A DNA stretch of 64,000 bases from Pseudomonadota bacterium (GTDB taxonomy: Bacteria; Pseudomonadota; Gammaproteobacteria; Burkholderiales; UBA9220). The notes below the pieces were generated by a model, which was given only the letters and a program-made list of their open reading frames with translations, made no database searches and had not been told where the DNA came from. Of the stretch, positions 580-59,639 are shown piece after piece. The stretch spans positions 1 to 64,000 of the forward strand of contig JAJZVC010000001.1 in NCBI GenBank assembly GCA_021845865.1, written 5' to 3'. Position 1 is the stretch's first letter, and every line of letters starts with the position of its first letter. The position numbers and the translations under genes were made by a program.

Positions 580-1992
580 ATGCGTTCTTTTCTCATCCTG
601 ATCATCGCATTAACCATCGCCGGATGCGGTCAAACCGCCAAACCGATTCCGCCTTACACTCAAAGCGGGGAATTGGTGGTGGTTACCCGCAACAGCCCCA
701 CAACCTATTATGAAGATGCCGGCGGTCAGCCTGCGGGAATCGAGCACGACCTTGTGGAACTGTTCGCCAAGGAGCTTGGGGTGCGGGTCCGTTTCATCGT
801 CACCCCCCAGTTCAATGAAATCATTCCCACTCTTTTGCAGCAGCAGGCCCACTTCGCGGCAGCAGGCCTGACGATAACGCCAGAGAGGGAAAAGCTCGTC
901 CAGTTCATTACCCCTTACCAAACCATCCAGCAGCAGGTGGCTTACAACACCAATAATCTTAAACCGCGTAGCGCCCGGGACCTTATCGGCAAACGCATTG
1001 AAGTGGTGGCTGGCAGCAGCTATGTGGAGCGATTGGAGGAACTCCGAGACAAATACCCCAAGCTGAAATGGCGTGAAGTGGAAGCCCTGGAGAGTGAGGA
1101 ATTGCTGGAAAGAGTGGCGGAAGACGAAATCGATTACGCCATTGCCGACTCGAATGTTATTGATATATCAAAAACCTATATTCCAAATCTCGATAACGCC
1201 TTCAATATCAGCCCACCCCAGTACCTGGCCTGGGCTTTCCCCAAGGAGGCCGACCCGCAGCTGGTCGCCAAAGCCAAGGCCTTCTTCGATAGAATCAAGC
1301 AGGATGGCACATTGAAGGTGCTGATCGACCGCTATTACGGCCATACTCAGCGGCTTGAGTCGGCAGACGTGGCGGGAATTCTGGACAAGCGCGAGGCACT
1401 CTTAGCCCCCCTGCGCAAATTCTTCTATCCCGCCCAGGAAATCAGCGACATCGACTGGCGCCTCCTGGCAGCCCTGGCTTACCAGGAATCCCATTGGGAC
1501 CCCCTGGCCACCTCCCCTACCGGCGTGCGGGGGATCATGATGCTGACGGAAGACACCGCCGACAGACTGGGCGTTTCGAACCGCCTCGACCCCCGCCAGA
1601 GCATTCGCGCCGGCGCCAAGTACCTAGCCAGCCTGAAGGATATGCTTCCTGCCCGCATCAGCGAACCCGATCGCACATGGCTTGCCTTGGCTGCCTACAA
1701 CATGGGATACGGACACCTGGAGGACGGGCGGATTCTGGCCCAGCGGATGAAAATGAACCCCGACTCCTGGGCAGATCTGAAGAAAGTTCTTCCTCTTCTT
1801 ACCCAGTCGGCCTACTACACCAAACTCAAACATGGTTACGGTCGAGGCGGCCAGGCGGTGATTTTCGTCGAAAGCGTCCGCACCTACTACGACATCCTGG
1901 TACGCTTCGAAAAACCCCACGAAATCCAGTTCAACCTGGCAGAAAGCGCAAAACCTGGCCGGCGTCCGCGACTGAAAGCCGCCCGCAGCTGA
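580..1992 (+). CDS. mltF: Membrane-bound lytic murein transglycosylase F (MltF)
   Basis: Predicted outer-membrane lipoprotein that cleaves peptidoglycan glycan strands, leaving 1,6-anhydro-muramic ends. The chosen ATG gives a short signal peptide with lipobox IAGC (Cys16). An upstream in-frame ATG at 544 would add 12 residues before the hydrophobic segment and is less likely. Residues about 30-260 form a family 3 periplasmic solute-binding domain. The C-terminal SLT domain follows, with the catalytic glutamate in AYQESHWDP (about residue 303) and the later AAYNMGYGH motif. Total 470 residues, slightly shorter than the E. coli protein. It stands alone and is followed by a terminator. Confidence 0.92.
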   Translation: MRSFLILIIALTIAGCGQTAKPIPPYTQSGELVVVTRNSPTTYYEDAGGQPAGIEHDLVELFAKELGVRVRFIVTPQFNEIIPTLLQQQAHFAAAGLTITPEREKLVQFITPYQTIQQQVAYNTNNLKPRSARDLIGKRIEVVAGSSYVERLEELRDKYPKLKWREVEALESEELLERVAEDEIDYAIADSNVIDISKTYIPNLDNAFNISPPQYLAWAFPKEADPQLVAKAKAFFDRIKQDGTLKVLIDRYYGHTQRLESADVAGILDKREALLAPLRKFFYPAQEISDIDWRLLAALAYQESHWDPLATSPTGVRGIMMLTEDTADRLGVSNRLDPRQSIRAGAKYLASLKDMLPARISEPDRTWLALAAYNMGYGHLEDGRILAQRMKMNPDSWADLKKVLPLLTQSAYYTKLKHGYGRGGQAVIFVESVRTYYDILVRFEKPHEIQFNLAESAKPGRRPRLKAARS

Positions 1993-2022
1993 GTTTTGGC
2001 GGCGCATCATCGATCATGAGGA

Positions 2023-2059
2023 CTGAGCTACCAGGCATCACTGGCCTCAGGGGTTTTTC
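2023..2059 (+). terminator. Terminator after mltF
   Basis: An outer CTGAG/CTCAG stem and an inner CCAG/CTGG stem form an interrupted hairpin. It is followed by GGG and a run of five T. It lies between the convergent ends of mltF and serS. Confidence 0.6.
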
Positions 2060-2068
2060 TCGCCAGGG

Positions 2069-3361
<1,293 letters not shown>

Positions 3362-52757: not shown

Positions 52758-54545
52758 ATGAAGCGCATCGCCCTTCTGGGGATGCCGAATACCGGCAAAT
52801 CCACTTTCTTCAATCGCCTCACCGGCGCCTCTGCCCGTGTCGGCAACTGGCCGGGGATCACCGTTGACCTGATGAGCGCCAAAGTGCCGCTGGGCGGCGC
52901 CATGGCCGAAATCGTCGACCTGCCGGGCATTTACGACCTGCACGGCTTTTCCGATGACGAACAGGTCGTGCGCCACTTCCTGGAAAACACTCCTGTCGAC
53001 CTCGTCCTGCTGATTCTCAACACATCGCAAATCGAGCGCCAACTCGCTCTGGCCCTGCAGATCAAGCAATTAGGCCTTCCCTCTGTCTTGCTGCTCAACA
53101 TGTCCGATGAGGCGAAAAAATTCGGCATCACCGTGAACACATCCAGCATGGCGGAACAGCTTGGCATGCCGGTAGTGCTGTTCAGCGCCAAGTACGGGGA
53201 ACACTATCAGGAGGCGATGAGCGTCGTTGCCGCGGCCATAGGCGCCAGCCATCCCGTGCAGCTGGAAAGCTTGAGGGAAAAGCTGCAGCCCGACCATCAG
53301 ATCGAGGCCAGCATGGAAGCAGTGCTGAAAAAATCGGTCATCATCCCGGAGCGGCTATCCGAGCAACTTTCCGACCGTCTGGACAGGGTGCTGCTGCACC
53401 CCTTCTGGGGAATCCTCCTCTTTTTTGCCGCCATGTTTCTGGTTTTCCAGGCGGTTTTCGCTTTCGGCAAGCCGCTCCAGGACGGCGTGGCCTGGCTGCT
53501 GGAGCTCTTCAAGGACTATGCGCTCGAACCATTGCTGACCGGCCTCCCCGCCCCCCTACACGGCTTTCTTATCGACGGCCTCTACAATGGCGTCGGCACT
53601 GTAGCCGCCTTTGTGCCGGTAATCGTCCTGTTCTTTCTCCTCATGGCAGTCGTAGAAGACACCGGCTACCTATCCCGCGCCGCGTTCCTGATGGATGCCC
53701 TGATGTCCCGCATGGGCCTTGACGGGCGCAGCTTCGTCATGGTGCTCATGGGCTTCGGCTGCAACGTCCCTGCCCTGATGGGAACACGGGTAATGCGATC
53801 CCGTCCCCTGCGACTGCTGTCCATGCTGGTGATCCCCTTTTCCCTCTGCTCGGCGCGCCTGCAAGTCTTTCTATTCATCACTACCGCCCTGTTCACCGCC
53901 AAACAGGCCCCCCTGGTGCTTTTCAGTCTTTATCTGCTCAGTTTTGCGACGGCCATTCTTACCGCCTTGCTGTTCCGCAAGCGTTTCCAAAACAACGAGC
54001 CGTTCATTCTCGAACTCCCCCCCTACCGCCTGCCCACGCTGCGCCAGATCGTGTTGCGAGGGTGGCATGAAGTGCATCACTTCCTCAGTCGCGCCAGCAA
54101 GTTCATCGTGGCTGGCGTCGTGCTGGTTTGGCTGCTGACCCACCTTCCATTTAGCGCCCAGCCGGCCAGCCCCGAAACCTGGGCCGGGCTAATCGGCGGC
54201 GCCATGGAGCCGCTCCTCGCCCCCTTGGGCATCGACCACAAGCTGGCAGTAGCTCTGATTTTCGGCCTGGTGGCCAAGGAAATCGTCATCGGCTCTTTGG
54301 CGGTCATCTTCAGCCTAGAAGGCGATGCCCTGACCCGCGCCATCGCCCAGCAGATGGACTGGGTCCAGGCCTACAGCTTCATGCTGTTCACCCTGGTCTA
54401 CACCCCCTGCCTTTCCACCATCGCCACGCTGCGAAGCGAATCGAAAAGCCTCGGCTTCACACTGCTCTCTCTTGGCTGGTCCCTCGGCTTGGCGTGGACG
54501 CTGAGTTTTGCGTTCTATCAGGGCGCGCGCGCTCTCGGCCTCTAA
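52758..54545 (+). CDS. feoB: Ferrous iron transporter FeoB
   Basis: Inner-membrane Fe(II) permease with an N-terminal GTPase-like domain. G1 GMPNTGKST (residues 8-16), G3 DLPG, and G4 NMSD in LLNMSDEAKKF are present. About eight to ten membrane helices follow from residue 215, with gate motifs including GFGCNVPALMGTR (about 330-342). 595 residues, shorter than the E. coli protein (773) but within the family range. No FeoC gene follows. Confidence 0.94.
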   Translation: MKRIALLGMPNTGKSTFFNRLTGASARVGNWPGITVDLMSAKVPLGGAMAEIVDLPGIYDLHGFSDDEQVVRHFLENTPVDLVLLILNTSQIERQLALALQIKQLGLPSVLLLNMSDEAKKFGITVNTSSMAEQLGMPVVLFSAKYGEHYQEAMSVVAAAIGASHPVQLESLREKLQPDHQIEASMEAVLKKSVIIPERLSEQLSDRLDRVLLHPFWGILLFFAAMFLVFQAVFAFGKPLQDGVAWLLELFKDYALEPLLTGLPAPLHGFLIDGLYNGVGTVAAFVPVIVLFFLLMAVVEDTGYLSRAAFLMDALMSRMGLDGRSFVMVLMGFGCNVPALMGTRVMRSRPLRLLSMLVIPFSLCSARLQVFLFITTALFTAKQAPLVLFSLYLLSFATAILTALLFRKRFQNNEPFILELPPYRLPTLRQIVLRGWHEVHHFLSRASKFIVAGVVLVWLLTHLPFSAQPASPETWAGLIGGAMEPLLAPLGIDHKLAVALIFGLVAKEIVIGSLAVIFSLEGDALTRAIAQQMDWVQAYSFMLFTLVYTPCLSTIATLRSESKSLGFTLLSLGWSLGLAWTLSFAFYQGARALGL

Positions 54546-54584
54546 AAAAGCGGGGTACGCTCTCCACGCCATGCCGAGCACGCC

Positions 54585-55175
54585 ATGAAGCCCTACGCCG
54601 AGTCCTGCGCTCAAAATCGAGACCCTATCCTGGCGGTTCTGCGGAAAGAATTCGCCGACCGCAAGCGGGTTTTGGAAATTGCCAGCGGGACAGGACAACA
54701 TGCCGTCTATTTTGGCGAGGCGCTTCCCCACCTAAGCTGGCAAACCAGCGAACTCCCCCAGCATCATGCCGGCATCCAGGCTTGGCTGAACGAAGCACGG
54801 TTGCCAAATGTTCATCCCCCGTTGGCCTTGGACATCAACGCTGCCGAGTGGGCGGTTAAGCCCGTAGACGCCGTATTCAATGCCAACACCGCGCATATCG
54901 TTTCCTGGCCTGCCGTCGAACGAATGTTCGCCCACATCGGTCGGGTACTCGAAAGTGGCGGGCTGCTGTGCCTTTACGGGCCGTTCAACTACAACGGTCA
55001 TTTCACGGCGGCAAGCAACGCCCGGTTCGACGCCTGGCTAAAAGAACGGGACCCCCTCAGCGGTATCCGCGATTTCGAGGCCCTGAACCGGCTCGCCGAA
55101 GCGCAACAGATGCACTTGCGCCATGATTACTCCATGCCCGCCAACAACCACACCCTGGTGTGGAAACGGCGTTAG
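54585..55175 (+). CDS. DUF938 SAM-dependent methyltransferase
   Basis: 196 residues. Class I methyltransferase fold. Motif I reads VLEIASGTGQHAVYF (about residues 29-43). The FNANTAHIVSW and GPFNYNGHFTAASNARFD stretches identify DUF938. Substrate unknown. It lies 39 bp after feoB on the same strand with no terminator between, so it may be co-transcribed. It converges on the SPASM gene. Confidence 0.85.
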   Translation: MKPYAESCAQNRDPILAVLRKEFADRKRVLEIASGTGQHAVYFGEALPHLSWQTSELPQHHAGIQAWLNEARLPNVHPPLALDINAAEWAVKPVDAVFNANTAHIVSWPAVERMFAHIGRVLESGGLLCLYGPFNYNGHFTAASNARFDAWLKERDPLSGIRDFEALNRLAEAQQMHLRHDYSMPANNHTLVWKRR

Positions 55176-55254
55176 CCGGGACTTGTTTTCTTTCCATTTG
55201 TTTTGGGTTTGCACCGTTCCTCATCACCCCCAAGAAGCCCCGAACACTTTCCTT

Positions 55255-56658
55255 TCAGCCAAGCACCCCCGGGTGGACCACCGGGATCACCCCCGGCAAA
55301 TCAGGGCGACGGAGAACCTTGCCTTCGATTTCCCGCAACACCCCTCCCGTCAGAAAGTACAATCCCGCTGCAAATAGGGGCAGATGAAAAGCGAAACGGT
55401 GGTCGCAGGCTCGGCGCCATTCCTCGCCCTCCAGCTTCATGCACCCTCCTTTGCACAACTGAAGCACGGGGCAACGTGGACACTCCTCCCGCCGCGACCA
55501 GTGCCAAGCTGTATCGAGGCGGATATTGGCATAGTCGCTGACGTGCCCAATTGCCCGCCCCTCCCTTGCGGAGGCCAGCGGGCAGGTCAGAGCGTTACCC
55601 TTCAAATCCACGGCCAGGCTATCCTCCCGATCCATGGCGCAAAACTGCCCAAGGCTGGAGGATGGCCTTTCGTAGGCCAGGGACCGGTAGAAATCCTGGA
55701 GTTTTTCCTTGATGCTGTAGGCATGAACCGCCATGCCATGGGAAATCTCGGAAAAAAGGGCATGCCTTAGAGCCGTGGGATCGGCCTCGGCCTTAGGACC
55801 GGAAAAACAATCCTTCTCGCCACCCGAGAAAAGCATTTCTTCCGTGGTCAAAGGAATACCCTGGGCACGGCAACCGAGATGCGCCGCCAGGTACTCTTTC
55901 ACGGCAGAAAGCGAATGGTTGTAACCGCTCAGTCGGCAACAAAAACGAATTTTCCCTGTTGGATTAAGCCGTTGGTATAGCTGGCGCAGATTTTCCGCCT
56001 TGACCGGTTCGTCAAAAACATCCTCGCCGCGGTTGAATTTTTGCGCCGGGCCATCATGCCGTACCACCACCAAGACTTGTAGACGCTCAAGCCAGGAAAT
56101 CATGTTCTGATCGAGCACGCAGCCGGTCGTAATTACCTTGATCTCCACCGGGGAACGGTTCTCGGCAAAAAAAGAGCCGAGGTATTCCAGCGCCGGCCAT
56201 TGCGTGAAGGGCTCGCACCCCCAGAACTCCACTTGGAGCGGGGATTGGGGTTCCGAGGACAACCACTGGGGCAAACGCTCCGCGAAGGTCCTGGCGTCCT
56301 CCAGACTGTCTATAACCTCGGCATCCCCCGCAGACCTGCAATCAACATGTCGGCCAAGTTGGATTCTGAGGGTGCGTAGGGAAGCGCTTTTATTGAGCGG
56401 ATTTTGTGGCGAGACGGTTGGCGCATCAGCCCATGGGCGCAGCGGCACGACATCGTGACCGAAATCGTGGGCTTGAACAATCAAACGCTTATTGTTTTCG
56501 TGGGAGAGTTGTGAAGCGTGGGGATCATAGGAAAGATAGAATTCCTCGCCCCGCAATTTCTGCATCCGCAACCTAAAGACAACCGCGCCTTTACGTTTCG
56601 CATCGTCAGCGGCGGGTTCGCCCGTGGAGAGGTATTCCTGTTGTAAGCTATTGACCAT
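55255..56658 (-). CDS. Degenerate radical-SAM protein with intact SPASM domain
   Basis: 467 residues. The C-terminus carries a full seven-cysteine SPASM motif: Cys340, then Gly354-x4-Cys359, Cys393-x2-Cys396-x5-Cys402-x3-Cys406, and Cys418. This predicts auxiliary 4Fe-4S clusters. The middle keeps other radical-SAM family landmarks: LRIQLG (97-102), FWGCEP (145-150, normally FWGGEP) and RHDGPAQ (200-206). Where relatives have the CX3CX2C cluster site after LKIQLG, this protein has HVDCRSAG (104-111), with only one cysteine. It is therefore unlikely to bind the catalytic cluster or cleave SAM. The N-terminal 90 residues share an FYLSYD...GHDVVPL pattern I associate with full radical-SAM relatives. 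No frameshift is seen. Substrate unknown. Confidence 0.8.
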   Translation of the reverse strand: MVNSLQQEYLSTGEPAADDAKRKGAVVFRLRMQKLRGEEFYLSYDPHASQLSHENNKRLIVQAHDFGHDVVPLRPWADAPTVSPQNPLNKSASLRTLRIQLGRHVDCRSAGDAEVIDSLEDARTFAERLPQWLSSEPQSPLQVEFWGCEPFTQWPALEYLGSFFAENRSPVEIKVITTGCVLDQNMISWLERLQVLVVVRHDGPAQKFNRGEDVFDEPVKAENLRQLYQRLNPTGKIRFCCRLSGYNHSLSAVKEYLAAHLGCRAQGIPLTTEEMLFSGGEKDCFSGPKAEADPTALRHALFSEISHGMAVHAYSIKEKLQDFYRSLAYERPSSSLGQFCAMDREDSLAVDLKGNALTCPLASAREGRAIGHVSDYANIRLDTAWHWSRREECPRCPVLQLCKGGCMKLEGEEWRRACDHRFAFHLPLFAAGLYFLTGGVLREIEGKVLRRPDLPGVIPVVHPGVLG

Positions 56659-56794
56659 AGCCTAATTTTCCAAATGGTTAACGTATTGTTTTTACGATAC
56701 CCCTTTCTTGAAAGAACCACATCCACAGAACTACCAAATAGAATTACCAAACCTCAACGGATTAAGGCTTCGTAAAACCGCCATGCCTCAAAAT

Positions 56795-57043
56795 TTAATT
56801 GAGGCTGACCAGCCCCATCTGAAGTGCCTTGACCAGGGCATGGGTGCGGTTACGGGCGCCAAGCTTGGTCGTCAATTGACGCATGTAGTAGTTCACCGTC
56901 TTTTCGCTCAGCCCCACCACGAATGAAATTTCCCGATCCGTCAATCCCTCTTTCAGGCCTTGCAGAATCGCAATCTCTTTTGACGAGAATCCGGTAAAAG
57001 TGCGTGTACTAGCGAGGGACCTTGCTTTCGCTAACGCGTTCAT
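56795..57043 (-). CDS. Solitary LuxR-type DNA-binding protein
   Basis: 82 residues holding only a GerE/LuxR helix-turn-helix: FSSKEIAILQGLKEGLTDREI, then GLSEKTVNYYMRQLTTKLG, then NRTHALVKALQMGLVSLN. The sequence is closest in style to the C-terminal domain of autoinducer-type LuxR proteins. No receiver or ligand-binding domain is present. The ATG at 57043 is chosen because GGAGG stands 6 bases upstream. It lies 136 bp upstream of the SPASM gene on the same strand and may control it. Confidence 0.85.
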   Translation of the reverse strand: MNALAKARSLASTRTFTGFSSKEIAILQGLKEGLTDREISFVVGLSEKTVNYYMRQLTTKLGARNRTHALVKALQMGLVSLN

Positions 57044-57213
57044 CATCCACCTCCATGGTTTTACTTGTTTGCACAACAGGGCCAACCACGACCGCTGCCC
57101 GAAACACCCTGGCCGGTCATTTCATAATTTACCACCACAGCGGCCCGGCAGGAATGCGTAAAAATAATCGCCGCCACCGGACAATAATACCCATCCCCCA
57201 CGCGCCGCCACAA

Positions 57214-57241
57214 GTAAAAAGGGCGGCAAACGCCGCCCTTT
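57214..57241 (-). terminator. Terminator after ppsA
   Basis: Read leftwards, a perfect 10-bp GC-rich stem AAAGGGCGGC / GCCGCCCTTT with a GTTT loop is followed by more T. It stands 20 bp past the ppsA stop. Confidence 0.85.
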
Positions 57242-57260
57242 CTCCTGAACTCTCGCCCGC

Positions 57261-59639
57261 TCAGCGGAGATTCGCCAATTTAATCCATGTATCCACGACG
57301 GTATCGGGATTCAACGACACGCTTTCGATGCCTTCCCTAACCAACCACTCCGCCAAGTCAGGATGGTCGGATGGGCCTTGGCCGCAAATACCGACATATT
57401 TCCCCGCTTTACGGCAGGCCTGTATTGCTAGGTGGATAAGCGCTTTCACGGCGGGATTACGCTCATCGAACGAACCTGCCACCAGGCCGGAATCCCGGTC
57501 CAGGCCGAGGGTGAGCTGAGTAAGGTCGTTGGAGCCAATGGAGAAACCGTCGAAGAGCTGGAGGAAATCCTCCGCCAATACAACGTTGGATGGGATTTCA
57601 CACATCATGATCAGCCGCAGGCCATTCTCGCCTCGCTTGAGCCCCTTCTCGGCCAGGAGGTCCACTACCTGGCGCGCTTCGTCCAAGGTGCGCACAAAGG
57701 GGATCATCAGCTCCACATTGGTGAACCCCATTTCGTCGCGCACTTTTTTCATGGCGCGGCATTCCAGCTCGAAACAATCGCGAAACAAGGGCGAAACGTA
57801 ACGCCCCGCCCCCCGGAAGCCGAGCATGGGGTTCTCTTCATGGGGTTCATAGCGCGGCCCGCCGATGAGGTTGGCGTATTCGTTGGACTTGAAGTCCGAC
57901 ATGCGAACAATCACCGGCTTGGGATAAAACGCAGCGGCAAGCGTGGAAACGCCCTCGACGATTTTTTCCACGTAGAAATTCACCGGATCGCCATAGGCCG
58001 CTGCTTTTTCCCAGATGGTTGCCTTAAGCTCTTCCGGAAGACGGTCGAACTCCAATACCGCCTTGGGATGCACCCCGATCATGCGGCTGATGACGAACTC
58101 CAGGCGCGCCAGGCCGATCCCGGCATTGGGCAGGTTCTGGAAATCGAACGCCATGTCCGGGTTGCCCACGTTCATCATGATCTTTACCGGCGCAGGCGGC
58201 ATCTTGTCCAACGCCAGGTCGACCACTTCGAACTCCAGCCTGCCTTCGTAAATATTGCCGGTATCGCCCTCGGCGCAGGAGACGGTCACCTCGGCGCCGT
58301 TTTTCAATTCCTGGGTGGCGTTGCCGCAGCCCACCACCGCCGGGATGCCCAGTTCGCGGGCAATGATCGCCGCATGGCAGGTACGGCCGCCACGGTTGGT
58401 AACGATGGCCGAAGCCCGTTTCATGATGGGCTCCCAATCCGGATCGGTCATGTCCGTGACCAGCACGTCGCCCGGCTGAACCAGGGACATTTGGCTCACG
58501 TCGGTGATGACCTTTACCGGCCCGGCGCCGATTTTCTGGCCGATAGCGCGCCCCGTGACCAGGACGGTGGATCGTTGCTTGAGGGCATAGCGGGTTTGGC
58601 TCGCCGCACTGGCCCGCGCCTTCACGGTCTCCGGGCGCGCCTGGAGAATGTACAACTTGCCATCGACGCCATCCCGCCCCCACTCGATATCCATGGGACG
58701 GCCATAATGCCGTTCGATGATGGCAGCGTAGCGGGCCAACTCCATCACCTCCTCATCGCTGATGGAATATTTGATGCGCTCCTCGGCTGCCACGTCCACG
58801 GTTTTCACCGATTTGCCCGCATGGCGGTTATCGGTAAAAACCATCTTGATCGCCTTGCTGCCCACGTTGCGCCGGACAATAGCGGGTTTTCCCTCGGCCA
58901 GCGTTGGCTTGTAGACGTAAAATTCGTCCGGGTTGACGGCCCCTTGCACCACGGTTTCCCCCAGGCCGTAGGACGCGGTGACAAACACCACGTCCTTGAA
59001 GCCGGATTCGGTATCCAGGGTGAACATCACCCCGGAGGCACCGATGTCGCTGCGCACCATGCGCTGCACGCCGGCGGAAAGCGCCACTTTCTCGTGCTCG
59101 AAATGGTGATGAACACGATAGGCGATGGCCCGGTCATTATAGAGGGAGGCGAATACCTCCTTGATGGCGTGCTTGACGTTCTCCAGTCCATGGATGTTCA
59201 GGAACGTCTCCTGCTGGCCGGCAAAGGACGCATCAGGCAGGTCCTCGGCCGTGGCGGAAGAGCGCACGGCCACCGCCATGTCGCCATCGACAGAATCCGC
59301 CAACATCTTCTGGTAGGCATGATTGATCTGCTCGTCCAGTTCCGGCTGGAAGGGCGCCTCCGCCACCCACTGACGAATCATTTTGCCGGTGGCGGCGAGT
59401 TTATCCACATCGTCGATATCCAACCCCTTGAGGGCGTCGTTGACGCGGTGAACCAGGTCGTTGTGGGCAAGAAAATCGCGATAGGCCTGGGCAGTGGTGG
59501 CAAAGCCTCCCGGCACCCTTACCCCCAAATGCGCCAGCTGGCTGATCATTTCCCCCAGAGAAGAGTTTTTCCCCCCCACGTGCTCCACATCAGTCATACG
59601 AAGGGTCTCAAACCATGCGATGTACTGTTGCTTTTCCAT
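57261..59639 (-). CDS. ppsA: Phosphoenolpyruvate synthase
   Basis: Converts pyruvate and ATP to phosphoenolpyruvate, AMP and phosphate for gluconeogenesis. 792 residues. The N-terminal ATP-binding domain has [11 protein letters not shown] and [20 protein letters not shown]. The phosphohistidine domain has [15 protein letters not shown] with the catalytic His near residue 420. The C-terminal TIM barrel ends with [15 protein letters not shown] and [11 protein letters not shown]. It diverges from its regulator ppsR across a 119-bp A+T-rich gap. Confidence 0.97.

Follow-up and report, generated by a model that had tools for sequence, protein, structure and literature searches.

A radical-SAM/SPASM-type protein without the CX3CX2C cluster motif and with all seven SPASM cysteines on a Burkholderiales chromosome

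Introduction

What is left of a radical-SAM/SPASM protein when the site that cleaves SAM is gone, and why would such a protein persist? The question is raised by P0001, a 467-residue protein encoded in a single uninterrupted frame (translation of 55255-56658, minus strand) in the window analyzed here, which is the whole stretch of 64,000 nucleotides at positions 1 to 64,000 of contig JAJZVC010000001.1. In radical-SAM enzymes, the CX3CX2C triad binds the SAM-cleaving [4Fe-4S] cluster. The original prediction read HVDCRSAG (residues 104 to 111) at this position and described P0001 as a pseudoenzyme that has lost its catalytic cluster site and kept its SPASM cysteines.

Loss of the SAM-binding site and retention of the SPASM cysteines

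The translation confirms HVDCRSAG at the triad position. In the family alignment, which comprises 168 non-redundant members (P0001 and 167 others), the triad columns are 100% cysteine in 167/167 other members, and P0001 is the sole member without the triad. Its own triad columns hold V, C and A, where, by the alignment choice made, the C is Cys107. The 167 other members all carry C-N-x-x-C-x-x-C-x-Q, GGEP, the Asn of TNG and the Ser of SHDG. In P0001, the SAM-binding residues GGE, TNG and SxDG read GCE, TTG and RHDG (Table 1), with Thr178 for the Asn of TNG, Arg200 for the Ser of SHDG and, further along, Cys240 for the Asn of the FN strand. The landmarks LRIQLG, FWGCEP and RHDGPAQ are present as described in the prediction, as is Cys148 at the second Gly of GGEP. 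Profile searching with PF04055 finds no match in P0001 at E<=1; the closest relative, P0002, scores 36.6 bits with the same model (cut-off 29.5). A canonical triad at another place in P0001 is ruled out, none being present, and residues 1-339 contain no alternative three-cysteine motif: the only cysteines in this region are 107, 148, 180, 240, 241, 263 and 284.

The SPASM model TIGR04085 matches P0001 (32.6 bits, cut-off 27). All seven SPASM cysteines (340, 359, 393, 396, 402, 406 and 418) fall on the conserved columns of the family, as predicted, and these columns are Cys in all 167 other members, bar one to three end gaps. The QN of TCQN within the SPASM domain is also replaced, by Pro360-Leu361 (TCPL). 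Because the SAM-binding [4Fe-4S] site and the surrounding residues are gone, P0001 has, by established radical-SAM chemistry, very likely lost SAM cleavage; to judge by the sequence, the SPASM auxiliary clusters are likely retained.

Table 1. Coordinates in the window of the P0001 gene, its altered motifs and the surrounding stretch
Feature	Position	Strand	Evidence
Radical-SAM/SPASM-type protein P0001, without CX3CX2C cluster motif	55255..56658	-	Translation, profile searches, family alignment
RHVDCRSAGD, residues 103-112; all relatives: L-x-C-N-x-x-C-x-Y-C-x-Q	56323..56352	-	Family alignment
GCEP (Cys148) replacing invariant GGEP, residues 147-150	56209..56220	-	Family alignment
TTGC replacing TNGS, residues 177-180	56119..56130	-	Family alignment
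RHDGP replacing SHDGP, residues 200-204	56047..56061	-	Family alignment
Cys240 replacing 98% conserved Asn	55939..55941	-	Family alignment
SPASM domain, residues 340-418, all seven cluster cysteines	55405..55641	-	TIGR04085 32.6 bits, cut-off 27; alignment
2.7-kb stretch between feoB and ppsA, not present in same-genus genome G001	54546..57260		Synteny comparison
DUF938 (methyltransferase-like) gene within 2.7-kb stretch; no match in G001	54585..55175	+	Profile search
96-aa LuxR-type HTH ORF within 2.7-kb stretch, upstream of radical-SAM gene	56795..57085	-	PF00196 50 bits

Relationship to a phage-borne family

P0001 belongs to phrog_1802 (89.6 bits, E 4e-25, full-length alignment), a radical-SAM/SPASM family carried mostly by phages. 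Its homology to the phage members, such as Achromobacter phage JWF gp30 (YP_009224036.1), extends over the full length, including the N- and C-terminal regions, and the seven SPASM cysteines and the NRGED and LTG motifs are common to both. However, the phage proteins possess CX3CX2C, GGEP and SHDG, all three of which are absent from P0001, and they are encoded in tail-to-lysis regions, whereas the P0001 gene lies between the housekeeping genes feoB and ppsA. Further relatives come from phages JWF and 2-1, from hundreds of viral contigs and from additional genomes of the order; of these last, two have phage-like tail and lysis genes around them.

The closest relative, P0002 from Gallionellaceae bacterium UBA2239, belongs to the same genus, is likewise chromosomal and shares 47% identity with P0001; the two are sisters in the tree (SH-aLRT 98). 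Unlike P0001, P0002 is fully canonical, with the triad and the catalytic motifs in place, and it occupies another locus; positional orthology of the pair is rejected, as the loci differ. At 1.41, the end branch leading to P0001 has 3.4 times the length of its sister's (0.41). A clade sharing the triad loss, with Cys107 and Cys148 conserved, was sought in the genus, family, order, class and phylum samples, the GTDB contig set, plasmids, phages and viral contigs, and was not found there, leaving a single sequence. Thus, the part of the original prediction that concerns catalytic-site loss with retained SPASM ligands holds, as a combination unique among the 168 members, but the expected clade did not emerge. 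The titles and abstracts surveyed on radical-SAM pseudoenzymes and phage tail radical-SAM proteins offered nothing directly relevant.

Uneven divergence and predicted structure

The divergence of P0001 is concentrated in the catalytic core. With the core/SPASM boundary set at P0002 residue 300 and columns at least 95% conserved taken as near-invariant, P0001 departs from the family at 16/34 core columns vs 4/28 in the SPASM/C-terminus (Fisher p=0.007). At columns at least 99% conserved, departures number 9/21 in the core vs 1/14 after it (p=0.03). The median family member shows zero departures at near-invariant columns, and comparable counts occur only in the distant P0006 and P0007, both of which have the triad. 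For the core, changes unique to P0001 and to P0002 stand at 41:8 (p=2e-6), for SPASM at 11:3 and for the C-terminus at 3:2, although this unique-change test taken alone does not significantly separate the N-terminal two thirds from the remainder (p=0.77). The conservation pattern supports a SPASM region under stronger constraint than the core.

Structurally, the AlphaFold model of P0001 (pLDDT 88, pTM 0.89) predicts an intact radical-SAM/SPASM fold, with the loop that carries Cys107 and formerly the triad less well defined (pLDDT about 65-73). Foldseek matches the model to CteB (5why), anSME (4k37), TigE (8vpo) and ChlB (9gm3) at E 1e-7 to 1e-10. These are SPASM peptide or protein maturases whose fold the P0001 model resembles at 13-17% identity; they cleave SAM at the CX3CX2C cluster, the site of which is absent in P0001.

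Genomic context

Synteny comparison reveals that feoB and ppsA are adjacent in G001, the genome of the P0002 relative, where proteins near the locus are 86-96% identical. GC3 of the P0001 gene is 0.64 vs 0.75 in the neighboring genes. The LuxR-type HTH ORF stands alone, without an obvious N-terminal sensor domain, and may be a gene remnant. Inspection by eye of the small ORFs in 54500-57300 gives no convincing candidate for the precursor peptide or leader-binding (PqqD-like) partner that would accompany a RiPP maturase. The radical-SAM Pfam model matches 23 times in the source genome, an ordinary number; a search of this 91% complete draft returned no second phrog_1802-family member at E<=0.001, and therefore no active paralogue is seen in it. 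Elsewhere in the genus, contig C31 of G001 (L035, L036) carries several radical-SAM/SPASM genes beside an ABC-transporter ATP-binding gene.

Explanations for the persistence of P0001

The reading that we tentatively favor, by a little, is that P0001 persists as a selected non-catalytic binder. P0001 would be related to a phage-type radical-SAM/SPASM maturase (phrog_1802) but encoded on the chromosome; loss of the SAM-binding [4Fe-4S] site and nearby residues would have abolished SAM cleavage, while the fold and the ligands of two SPASM auxiliary clusters are kept. The SPASM domain, presumably loaded with its clusters, would maintain a surface, taken over from the enzyme, to which a protein or peptide can bind, and binding may be what selection has maintained. 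The 467-codon frame is intact; when the P0002 gene is evolved neutrally in simulation, by comparison, the mean number of stops reaches 2.3 at 100 substitutions and 6.6 at 300, and the frames still open number 6/60 at about 100 substitutions, 0/60 at 300 and 1/60 at 500. The loss of the catalytic motifs with retention of all seven SPASM cysteines, the heavier divergence of the core than of the SPASM/C-terminus, and a confident predicted fold that matches maturase structures point the same way. The codon model rejects omega=1 on the P0001 branch; only this rejection is taken from it, because branch lengths hit the bound, and the test also spans time before triad loss, because synonymous sites are saturated. 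Against a selected binder stand the isolated occurrence of the loss in one sequence, not shared by any sister, the accelerated branch, the loss of some SPASM positions as well (TCQN to TCPL) and the location in a stretch specific to this species, next to what may be a LuxR remnant. Roles as a redox sensor or an electron carrier, put forward in the original prediction, are guesses, and its scaffold role is likewise conjectural.

Several of these observations would also fit early gene decay, in which the gene of a phage-type enzyme whose substrate is no longer there comes under relaxed selection and its core erodes first, before a stop or frameshift becomes fixed. The accelerated branch, the 41:8 ratio of unique core changes, the lower GC3, the species-specific stretch with its short LuxR-type ORF and the singleton nature of the triad loss are all consistent with decay, as are the six in 60 simulated genes without a stop after about 100 neutral substitutions. 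If only the excess core changes post-date the loss and were neutral, scaled simulation gives an estimated 5-10% chance of a still-open frame, and therefore early decay is a real rival. However, all seven SPASM cysteines are kept with no stop, the SPASM domain and C-terminus are far less eroded than the core, and the fold is confidently predicted (pLDDT 88); decay is the less likely reading, but a serious one.

A bolder proposal, which appears improbable, is that P0001 is a dead decoy kept by the host, which would bind the substrate or partner of the phage enzyme and block its maturation as an anti-phage measure, or else a barrel with a rebuilt four-cysteine metal site. At core positions, Gly has given way to Cys148, Ser to Cys180 and Asn to Cys240, and Cys107 lies in the old triad loop, so that three of these P0001-only cysteines stand at active-site residues. 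Together they make up 4 of 153 P0001-only residues, above the 0.3% family Cys background (p=0.001). This enrichment is not taken to establish a new metal site, because neutral change would yield about the same number: random mutation under relaxed selection would give Cys in roughly 3% of changes, against which 4/153 is no excess. The Cys107 loop is also ill-defined in the model, and there is no second sequence, so a new metal or Fe-S site formed in the barrel by Cys107, Cys148, Cys180 and Cys240 is a long shot.

That P0001 is still active as a radical-SAM enzyme by means of an unusual cluster motif is hardly credible: non-canonical cysteine motifs are known in the superfamily, as in ThiC and PhnJ, but residues 1-339 offer no suitably spaced three cysteines and the SAM-binding GGE, TNG and SxDG residues are lost too. 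A sequencing or assembly error at the triad site, the other concern attached to residues 104-111, is equally hard to sustain. The source genome is a draft of 84 contigs, and another frame at this site holds TGC GGG GGA TGC; however, when frameshifts are allowed at realistic costs, profile alignment of the site scores no better than it does in frame, and shuffled codons perform equally well. The idea that a local frameshift conceals a CGGC readable in a different frame is rejected because of this lack of gain and because the losses are spread over >130 residues, and since they affect several separate motifs, one single error is no explanation.

The phage-borne radical-SAM/SPASM family

Across the large phage-borne phrog_1802 family (L063-L142, L165-L322, L163, L164), conservation of the triad and of all seven SPASM cysteines is complete, and in the members with inspected flanking regions, tail-fibre and lysis genes are close by. 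In several of the nearest phage relatives, a second, shorter radical-SAM gene, coding for 338 aa, immediately precedes the SPASM gene (L175 3966-4982, L183 3981-4997). This arrangement suggests a two-enzyme cassette; the tblastn query from the small gene also matches the main SPASM gene. L183 has a collagen-like tail protein nearby (1112-3052). In phage-like regions (L055 8622-9179, L056 8438-9034), the gene directly upstream of the radical-SAM gene encodes a protein weakly similar to 2OG-Fe(II) oxygenases, a likeness that is below the Pfam cut-off in L055. In L057 (8978-11280), the gene for the family member P0005 adjoins genes for a PqqD-like protein and for a 313-aa protein that has a GG-type leader-like stretch and whose C-terminal part is Hint-like, and may mark a peptide-maturation locus. 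Genome G476 (L054 7012-12766) carries three to four tandem radical-SAM/SPASM genes.

P0001 also draws attention to this large radical-SAM/SPASM family, carried by phages close to their tail and lysis genes. If maintained, P0001 would be a clear case of the radical-SAM/SPASM fold used without SAM chemistry and a natural test of SPASM clusters acting alone, for which the canonical sister from the same genus offers a comparison.
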